Positions 12,928-14,954 of a stretch of 14,954 bases of DNA are shown piece by piece. Source of the stretch: Desulfuromonadaceae bacterium (GTDB lineage: Bacteria > Desulfobacterota > Desulfuromonadia > Desulfuromonadales > Geopsychrobacteraceae). The position numbers and the translations under genes are program-made. A model generated the notes under the pieces. The model made no database searches and was not told where the DNA came from. It saw nothing but the letters and a program-made list of their open reading frames with translations. The number at the start of each line of letters is the position of its first letter. Positions within the stretch are counted from its first letter, which is position 1. The stretch lies in NCBI GenBank assembly GCA_030639985.1, contig DAOWKG010000292.1, forward strand, positions 1-14,954, written 5' to 3'.

Positions 12928-13614
12928 ATGGGAAAAGCGGGCTGGGTTAGGATAATTCCGTTTGCAGTGTTTATGGGATTTATCGGGTTGCAGCAATTAT
13001 TGGAGTGGTGTGTTGGTAATGACTGGATCGCTATAAGTCCGGAACAAATGCTCTATCTTTATCCGCTTAAAACCGTCCTGGTCGGCGGATTACTCCTTTT
13101 TTTGTGGAGCAAATACTCAGAACTACGGTTTGCCGATTTTAAAAATTTTACCCACACAGCTGCAAGTATTGGGCTTGGCCTGCTGGTTTTTGTCCTCTGG
13201 ATCAATATGGATTGGGGTATTGCTACGTTTGGTGAGAGTAAGGGCTTTGATCCTTTCTTAATCGGTAGCGATACTACCCGCAATCTGATGATATTTTCCC
13301 GTATTTTTGGTGCCGCATTGATAGTCCCGATTATGGAAGAACTATTCTGGCGCTCATTCATGTTGCGCTACATTATCACCGCCGATTTTTCCACTGTTAA
13401 AGTTGGTACTTATACCCTGACTTCATTTCTGATTTGTGCGGTATTGTTTGGTCTGGAACATAATTTATTTCTGGCCGGTATTATGGCGGGAGTCTCATAC
13501 AGCCTGTTGCTCTATTGGACCAAAAGTATTTACCAGTGCATTCTTGCTCATGCTGTGACCAATCTGGTGCTGGGTATTTATGTGCTGCAGACAGGTTATT
13601 GGCAGTTCTGGTAA
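12928..13614 (+). CDS. CPBP family intramembrane protease (CAAX-protease related)
   Basis: This 228-residue multi-pass membrane protein has the three CPBP/Abi motifs that form the intramembrane active site: Glu137-Glu138 with Arg142 in MEELFWRSF, Phe174 to His178 in FGLEHN, and His208 to Asn212 in HAVTN. Hydrophobic segments lie at about 9-25, 47-60, 79-95, 122-135, 162-175, 180-197 and 205-220. The N-terminal RIIPFAVFMGFIGLQ and YPLKTVLVGGLLLFLWSKYSELR recall the CAAX-protease-related subgroup often found with exosortase/PEP-CTERM systems. No exosortase is visible in this window. The start is supported by GGGGAG about seven bases before the ATG. Its substrate is unknown; it sits between acpH and a selenoprotein gene in an apparent operon. 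Confidence 0.9.
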   Translation: MGKAGWVRIIPFAVFMGFIGLQQLLEWCVGNDWIAISPEQMLYLYPLKTVLVGGLLLFLWSKYSELRFADFKNFTHTAASIGLGLLVFVLWINMDWGIATFGESKGFDPFLIGSDTTRNLMIFSRIFGAALIVPIMEELFWRSFMLRYIITADFSTVKVGTYTLTSFLICAVLFGLEHNLFLAGIMAGVSYSLLLYWTKSIYQCILAHAVTNLVLGIYVLQTGYWQFW

Positions 13615-13657
13615 GTGGCTTGAGCCGGGTAATGTACGAACATGGGAGTAATAAAAT

Positions 13658-14110
13658 ATGTCAAAAATGCAGATCGATATTGATGCCCCCGATTTTGTAT
13701 TAAATGATTTTACTGGCAAAGAATTTTCACTTTCAAGTTATCGTAACCTGAAAAATGTACTCCTTATCTTTAATCGCGGTTTTCTCTGACCGTATTGCCG
13801 TAGGCATATGGCGCAGTTACGCCAAGAAGCAGACAAATTAGCGAGATTGGATATTCAAGTCATGGTCGTGGGGCCGGAAAATTCAGATTCGTTTCGGGAC
13901 TTTTGGCAAAAGGAATCACTCCCTTTTATCGGTTTACCCGACCCAAACCACGTCGTCATGAACCTCTATGGGCAAGAGGTGAAAATATTAAAATTGGGCA
14001 GAATGCCGGCACAGATGCTGATTGATAAAGCGGGGGTTTTAAGGTTTGTTTATTACGGCAAGTCTATGGCCGATATCCCCGCTATCAGTGCAATTATAAA
14101 TGTCCTGTAG
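13658..14110 (+). CDS. Selenoprotein: peroxiredoxin-like (AhpC/TSA-type) thioredoxin-fold protein with in-frame UGA as Sec44
   Basis: Read through one TGA (13787-13789), this frame gives a 150-residue thioredoxin-fold redoxin. It runs from APDFVLNDFTGKEFSLSSY, the normal AhpC/TSA N-terminal beta strand and loop, through NRGFL-U-PYCRRHMAQLR, to the C-terminal LGRMPAQMLIDKAGVLRFVYYG containing the cis-proline (MP). In Cys-containing relatives the active site reads RGFWCPYCRRHMAQL. The UGA replaces exactly the first, attacking cysteine, giving Sec-Pro-Tyr-Cys with Cys47 as resolving residue. The frame is intact on both sides with no other defect. A SECIS-like hairpin follows immediately. GGGAG (13644-13648) precedes the ATG by nine bases. 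The likely role is thiol peroxidase or disulfide reductase activity in the cytoplasm. A conventional call would begin at the internal ATG 13808 and lose the active site. The alternative, a recent nonsense mutation, is much less likely. Confidence 0.9.
13790..13811 (+). promoter_or_regulatory. Candidate bacterial SECIS hairpin directly after the UGA
   Basis: Immediately after the UGA, CCGUA (13790-13794) pairs with UAUGG (13807-13811), including one G-U pair. U13795 is bulged, UGCC (13796-13799) pairs with GGCA (13803-13806), and the apical loop is GUA (13800-13802). A bulged U plus a GU-containing loop above a four-pair stem is the arrangement SelB recognises in the E. coli fdhF element. The loop is closer to the UGA than in fdhF, which is the weak point. 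Confidence 0.6.
13809..13824 (+). promoter_or_regulatory. Alternative SECIS-like hairpin
   Basis: UGGCG (13809-13813) pairs perfectly with CGCCA (13820-13824) around a six-base loop CAGUUA that contains GU. The loop GU begins 27 bases after the UGA, a distance closer to typical bacterial SECIS elements than the first hairpin. It shares bases 13809-13811 with the outer stem of the first hairpin, so the two are mutually exclusive in full form. It could instead be a chance palindrome in coding sequence. Confidence 0.4.
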
Positions 14111-14174
14111 GGGCGGAATCAATTTCCGCACGGATTGATTTGTGGGAAAATGGCTGGTATGGAATCTGCCCCTA
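14108..14174. repeat. Inverted-repeat element between convergent genes (REP/MITE-like or bidirectional terminator)
   Basis: A 67-base unit is bounded by perfect seven-base terminal inverted repeats, TAGGGGC (14108-14114) and GCCCCTA (14168-14174). Inside, GCGGAA (14113-14118) and TTCCGC (14124-14129) form a six-pair hairpin with a five-base loop. Alternatively AATCAAT (14117-14123) pairs with ATTGATT (14134-14140). The TAG at each end is the stop codon of the gene running into it. GTAGGGGC-type termini are familiar from dispersed intergenic palindromes in many bacteria. Only one copy is visible in this window, so its repeat status is inferred. Confidence 0.5.
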
Positions 14175-14954
14175 TGAAAGGATTGCCGGTAGTGGCCAAT
14201 CGGTTTCATAGCCGGCGGGATAGAAGTTCTCTTTGGTGCGATTAAAGTAGCCGAATTGAACCCGAGGAATCTCTTTTTTAATCCGGTCGAGCATCTTTTT
14301 CATGCCGATGCCGCCGCCATCAACGCCCATTGCCTTCCAGTAAACGATGGGATCAATGCTTAAATTACGCATTTGAATCAGGTCGATACCGATAGAGTCA
14401 ACTACCTCCAGCAACTTATCAATCTCATCCTCCCGGTCAGTCACTCCGGGAAATACCAGATAATTGAGCATCGTGAATAGCCCGTGCTGTTTGGCACGAC
14501 GTGCCGATTCGAGGACGTCATCCAAACCGTAGTGTAGGGGTCGATAATAGGCGTTATAGAGCGGTTCCTGAACCGAGTTCAGTGAAATACGAATGGAATC
14601 AATACCTGCTTCTGCCAGTTTATCGATGGCAGCTGGAATGGAGGCATTGGAATTGAAATTGATGGTTCCGCGCGGGGTTTGGCGGCGCATCTCTTTAACG
14701 GCGGCAGCAATCAAATCGGCCTGGAGGATTGGATCGCCTTCACAGCCTTGTCCAAAGGAGACAATCGCATTTTCGGCCGCTTTCAAATGGGGGATTGCCA
14801 CTTCGCAGAGTTCGTCTACGGTGGGGACAAAATTTAATCGATCTTGGCTTGCCTGACATACTTGGGGTTCATCCTGCAATGAAATACAACCGATACAGCG
14901 GGCATTGCAAGCCGGTGAGCATGGTAGCGGTGCTTCCCAACGGCCAAAAAAGAG
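14172..14954 (-). CDS. Radical SAM protein (5' partial)
   Basis: This frame enters from the right window edge on the minus strand; the TTG at 14879 is internal, not a real start. Upstream of it the frame encodes LPCSPACNARCIGCISLQDEP, whose CxxxCxxC (cysteines encoded near 14909, 14897 and 14888) binds the [4Fe-4S] cluster that cleaves S-adenosylmethionine. Downstream, VSFGQGCEGDPIL corresponds to the SAM-binding GGE-like segment. INFNSNASIPAAIDKLAEAGIDSIRISLNSVQEPLYNAYYRP matches the following strands of the radical SAM barrel. About 260 residues are visible and the protein ends at the TAG inside the inverted repeat. The reaction is unknown. It runs convergently towards the selenoprotein gene, so it belongs to a separate transcription unit. 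Confidence 0.9.
   Translation of the reverse strand, partial: LFFGRWEAPLPCSPACNARCIGCISLQDEPQVCQASQDRLNFVPTVDELCEVAIPHLKAAENAIVSFGQGCEGDPILQADLIAAAVKEMRRQTPRGTINFNSNASIPAAIDKLAEAGIDSIRISLNSVQEPLYNAYYRPLHYGLDDVLESARRAKQHGLFTMLNYLVFPGVTDREDEIDKLLEVVDSIGIDLIQMRNLSIDPIVYWKAMGVDGGGIGMKKMLDRIKKEIPRVQFGYFNRTKENFYPAGYETDWPLPAILS

Follow-up and report, generated by a model that had tools for sequence, protein, structure and literature searches.

The window analyzed here, a 14,954-nucleotide stretch of contig DAOWKG010000292.1 from a Desulfuromonadaceae bacterium, carries near its end a gene for a peroxiredoxin (Prx)-like protein of 150 residues (13658..14110, + strand) in which an in-frame UGA codon is very probably read as selenocysteine (Sec), which would be an active-site residue of this small redox enzyme. 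The frame opens at ATG 13658, 9 nt downstream of a Shine-Dalgarno-like GGGAG (13644..13648, + strand) recognized by eye, and closes at a terminal TAG. Its translation contains a single internal stop, the TGA of codon 44 (13787..13789, + strand), which lies within the motif FNRGFLUPYCRRHM. Cys47 (13796..13798, + strand), the partner of Sec44 in UPYC, is the product's sole Cys, Sec aside. With Cys placed at residue 44, the protein scores above cut-off for two Pfam models, PF00578 (2.5e-21) and PF08534 (3.9e-17). The ratio of nonsynonymous to synonymous differences (pN/pS) before and after the UGA is 0.29 and 0.18 against relative L006, 0.24 and 0.27 against L007, and, for the more distant L043, 0.47 and 0.34; judged by these ratios, the part before the UGA is under protein constraint much like the part after it. 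Reading frame, domain matches and conservation therefore agree with the first-pass annotation, which had described one UGA in an otherwise intact redoxin frame, and the alignment with AhpC/TSA redoxins that it proposed as a check yields the PF00578 match.

The UGA is retained among relatives from several phyla. A scan of named genomes returned 32 loci, 30 of which span the site, all with TGA; the carriers are mostly metagenome bins and are titled as Desulfobacterota, Bacillota, Chloroflexota, Spirochaetales and Latescibacterota. At the DNA level, a wider set of 61 loci pooled from three scans contains 57 that span the site (L036, L037, L044 and L104 fall outside it), with TGA in 53, including two same-genome duplicates and the window itself, and TGC in four. 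The four TGC loci are distant paralogues with 35-37% identity, all in genome G128. That genome holds five relatives at 1e-25 (L102, L107-L110): one carries UGA, and the remaining four have TGC, followed by a CxxS or CxxT arrangement. The window's phylum, sampled with 395 genomes, includes 22 that have a match at or below 1e-25, and 23 of the 27 matches contain one TGA; within the window's own class (277 genomes) there are five clear relatives with one TGA each and one partial relative, and three new own-class relatives have TGA at the aligned site. In the class of an Anaerolineaceae carrier (298 genomes), 92 genomes have a match at 1e-20 and one TGA is present in 92 of 96 matches; TGA occupies the site in all 30 of the 96 that were fetched, with L142 repeating L031. 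Of the four matches without a stop, G751 includes the site and the other three begin downstream of it. The UGA had been placed, in the first-pass annotation, where Cys homologues have their catalytic Cys, and the four TGC loci bear this out, as does the Cys found in four database proteins (P0007, P0020, P0106 and P0110) among the 32 that span the site in the 120 nearest listed. Close relatives with a sense codon other than Cys or Sec would have spoken against that placement; the 57 loci read show TGA or Cys codons only. Because relatives keep the TGA, a chance origin of the UGA-split frame is excluded.

A predicted bacterial Sec insertion sequence (SECIS) hairpin lies downstream of the UGA (13809..13824, + strand), with a stem formed by 13809-13814 and 13819-13824 and an AGUU loop at 13815-13818. 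The stem starts 19 nt downstream of the UGA, a spacing of 25 nt by the measure of the published model. The assignment draws on covariation, consensus, a codon control and energies in the window. Covariation was scored in an alignment of 44 genes (A1) over the 48 nt from the UGA, with the helix in columns 23-28 and 33-38; these are 44 of the 53 TGA loci, leaving out two duplicates (L085, L094) together with seven distant rows that have no UPxC, and retaining one UPYT row. Within the helix, 95.3% of 258 cells are paired and 20 cells are changed on both sides, and the covariation score is 0.309 against 0.205; none of 500 shuffles reaches the score, the paired percentage or the number of double-change cells. 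Slid versions of the helix pair only 17-66%. Codons that change together across the stem include GCG/CGY, AUG/CAU, GUG/CAC, GCA/UGC and ACG/CGU. In 73 of 74 genes (72 of 73 without the repeated locus L142) the loop Leu is encoded by TTG, compared with 19.9% and 21.6% of the other Leu codons in the same genes, and the sole exception is the window, whose hairpin has UUA. The published model specifies a loop of 3-9 nt, a stem of 4-16 bp and a spacing of 16-37 nt, together with G in the first two loop positions and an energy of -7.5 or lower (PMC13188914). The window hairpin fits the spacing and the stem; those of the relatives fit the G position and the energy as well.

The genome to which the window belongs also encodes Sec machinery. 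tRNA-Sec is present, selA and selB adjoin on contig C13, both over cut-off, and selD, likewise over cut-off, has its own in-frame UGA in AGUAAKIGPGDL (L081 / L113, contig C143). The proposed search for selA, selB, selC and selD thus recovered tRNA-Sec, selA, selD and part of selB. The same genome encodes a PrxU with UGA in TFVU (L038 / L112, contig C156), whose hairpin shares the CAGUUG loop of the window's relatives and carries it on a different stem. With its covarying stem and its almost constant AGUU loop, found also in the PrxU of the same genome, the hairpin offers a clean model of SelB recognition. Over-cut-off selA matches occur in 50 of the 51 carriers given (the exception, G092, is 82% complete) and in all 18 carriers titled outside Desulfobacterota. 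The phylum background is 355 of 395 genomes, and in the class of the Anaerolineaceae carrier a selA match is found in 87 of 92 carriers versus 175 of 206 others (Fisher p 0.02). Co-occurrence with selA is weak evidence, since most genomes of the sampled groups have the gene.

We consider it likely that the locus encodes a 150-residue AhpC/TSA-type selenoprotein acting as a selenylsulfide disulfide oxidoreductase. SelB and tRNA-Sec, directed by the hairpin, would decode UGA 44 as Sec. In the thioredoxin fold, Sec44 would sit just before the first active-site helix, with Cys47 three residues on and Pro117 (14006..14008, + strand) at the cis-Pro place. Sec44 would attack a disulfide or similarly oxidized substrate, Cys47 would resolve the intermediate through a selenylsulfide, and the thiol system of the cell would re-reduce the enzyme. 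The structure model has a predicted local distance difference test (pLDDT) score of 89.3 and a predicted template-modelling (pTM) score of 0.86. In alignments to 4xih, 3hdc and 4nmu, Pro117 coincides with the thioredoxin cis-Pro and with the peroxiredoxin Arg, the latter in those to AhpE R116A (4xih) and ResA (4nmu). The peroxiredoxin Pro, Thr and Arg places are occupied by Arg40, Sec44 and Pro117; all 39 aligned rows keep both Arg40 and Pro117. The protein thus combines a PF00578 domain with UxxC and reads RxxxUxxC in place of the peroxiredoxin PxxxT/SxxC(U) and conserved Arg. By eye, no signal peptide or membrane anchor is seen in the product.

The first-pass annotation had offered a Sec-dependent thiol peroxidase or reductase. 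Its Sec dependence is strongly supported, and of the two activities the reductase is favored: with other residues at the peroxiredoxin Pro, Thr and Arg places, a thiol:disulfide oxidoreductase using UxxC and the cis-Pro appears likelier than a peroxidase. A selenoprotein peroxidase, with Sec44 as the peroxidatic residue and Cys47 or an outside thiol resolving, seems unlikely but deserves weight, as Cys47 can be lost: some distant relatives have Ala, Thr or Ser in its place (UPxA, UPYT, UKQS). One distant group (L099-L103, L105, L149) has UPFA or UPYA, retaining Sec next to a missing Cys. Glutathione peroxidases have Sec at the first CxxC place and a catalytic Sec-Gln-Trp-Asn tetrad; for this family, one weak row (2p5q) appeared.

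Several observations weigh against the oxidoreductase reading and the Sec insertion it presupposes. The closest fold matches are the peroxiredoxins Bcp and AhpE, with ResA matching closely, and the distant Sec relatives without Cys47 mean that a UxxC cycle is not general. No conserved neighbors point to a substrate, none being common to more than four of 74 loci. The Cys in four database proteins and the Leu, Arg and Asp in one each detract from a clean picture, and the assembly holds only part of selB, which a contig end cuts. Of the five covariation measures, two are equivocal, with double-change pairs reached by 32 of 500 shuffles and pair types by 481 of 500, and the Anaerolineae set, where the stem is almost invariant, adds no covariation. 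The window, alone among the 44 A1 genes, has C.A at the loop-closing pair 13814/13819; this open pair moves its G to the third loop position, and its hairpin reaches -6.4 to -7.2 kcal/mol versus -10.0 for the relatives' form, so that the window hairpin, considered by itself, misses the G position and energy limit of the model. Single-sequence folds are no better than shuffles, and the case for the hairpin therefore rests on covariation and codon use.

That UGA 44 is a true stop, leaving a pseudogene or just a 100-residue C-terminal piece from the internal ATG 13808 (Met51; 13808..13810, + strand), is very improbable. It would suit the missing closing pair of the window hairpin and the fact that gene callers report the C-terminal piece, the open reading frame (ORF) at 13808-14110. 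It is opposed by TGA at the same codon across phyla, by protein constraint on both halves and by RNA-level covariation and codon bias downstream of the UGA; a piece from Met51 would also be without the active site. The reported piece appears instead to reflect annotation practice, as the first-pass annotation foresaw in stating that gene callers keep only the part from ATG 13808: of the 120 nearest database proteins listed, 88 are without the Sec site and 77 begin exactly at the aligned Met51. This amounts to a systematic annotation loss, in which the active site is cut off in most database relatives. On a Thermomicrobium roseum plasmid (NC_011961.1; L145, 1501-1947), a relative has UPYC and shares the hairpin loop; all that the PLSDB record shows of it is a hypothetical protein of 42 residues that stops at the UGA. 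The 32 site-spanning proteins have Trp in 25, Cys in four, and Leu, Arg and Asp in one each. The last three (P0019, P0046 and P0107) may reflect sequence error, decay or real change. Although these 25 Trp residues might suggest a changed genetic code with UGA as tryptophan, we regard this as next to impossible given that no locus read at the DNA level has TGG, that four of the 14 main ORFs of the window end at TGA and that the genome has tRNA-Sec and selA. Because TGG is absent from the loci read as DNA, the database Trp is best taken, from the proteins alone, as UGA translated with table 4 in metagenome gene calls.

The relatives come from no fewer than five phyla, and cultured carriers include Acetoanaerobium pronyense and Desulfosarcina widdelii. 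Close to the window the gene has a patchy distribution, and further afield it is common, a pattern that suggests lateral spread. A plasmid search returned two distant matches. In a tree built by a quick method, with 50 of 99 inner branches open and several long branches, and used here only for the positions of the Cys tips and of the window's neighbors, the Cys tips are scattered and L006-L008 are the window's neighbors. Tentatively, these genes may form an unnamed Prx-like branch in which Sec is ancestral and nearly obligatory and Cys forms are rare, scattered losses. The distant UPxA group, which keeps Sec without the neighboring Cys, would then point to a chemistry that is truly Sec-dependent rather than that of a tuned Cys enzyme. 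Such a branch could have moved among anaerobes belonging to several phyla and escaped notice through gene calls that remove its active site. Separately, genomes of the window's family (L051, L058) carry another UGA-bearing Prx-like type, FYRGxWUPYCN, which also falls below the NF040769 cut-off.

Elsewhere in the window, a gene for an Rce1-like CAAX protease (12928-13614) precedes the selenoprotein gene by 43 nt in the same orientation, and the opposite strand encodes a radical SAM protein (14172-14954). This CAAX protease / radical SAM context is absent from the neighbor clusters of the relatives, and in synteny comparisons with G014 (a genome of the window's genus), L006 and L043, which have short flanks, the gene itself is the sole match. 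An Rfam search of the window gave nothing at gathering scores, and a promoter and terminator scan gave no signal clearly above shuffles.

UxxC Prx-like selenoproteins are an established class (PMC13188914, PMC1088965), and the description of the present protein as an unannotated type of selenoprotein was accordingly too strong. The mention, in the first-pass annotation, of Desulfuromonadales-type bacteria as carriers of Prx-like selenoproteins fits. Prx-like UXXC selenoproteins have been known at least since the Sargasso Sea study. Reviews list a PF00578 UxxC/UxxU "Prx-like thiol:disulfide oxidoreductase" (exemplar WP_010940744.1) and a PF08534 UxxC redoxin (PMC13188914, PMC9312934, PMC1088965, PMC2398784, PMC1914089), and one source describes homologous motifs, TXXU and UXXC, in which the position of Sec differs (PMC1914089). 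Literature searches, judged by their listings, gave no paper on the present branch as such. The window protein resembles the Prx-like UxxC/UxxU oxidoreductases and "Prx-like 1" in its PF00578 domain, its UxxC and its Sec at the peroxiredoxin Thr place, and appears to belong to this known kind, perhaps as a distinct branch.

Its best NCBIfam match is the SelL-related redox protein NF040769 (7.2e-19), which all 39 aligned members match at 0.001; the window protein scores 68.1 bits against a cut-off of 120 and so falls outside that family, and no NCBIfam model reaches its cut-off for this protein. It differs from ResA-type thiol:disulfide oxidoreductases in having Sec for the first Cys, and scores 36.6 bits against 170 for the NCBIfam ResA model. 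With the Bcp/AhpE peroxiredoxins and Sec-PrxU it has the AhpC/TSA fold in common, but its Sec precedes the peroxidatic place by three residues, whereas the Sec of PrxU (TFVU) occupies it. The published Prx-like sets contain many Cys homologues (225 Sec and 2,740 Cys for Prx-like 1 in Table 2 of the Global Ocean Sampling (GOS) study), whereas Sec dominates here; the comparison with WP_010940744.1 is by description only. In many selenoprotein families Cys forms far outnumber Sec, and with this ratio reversed, a Sec-dominated branch would make a good test of what Sec does beyond Cys.
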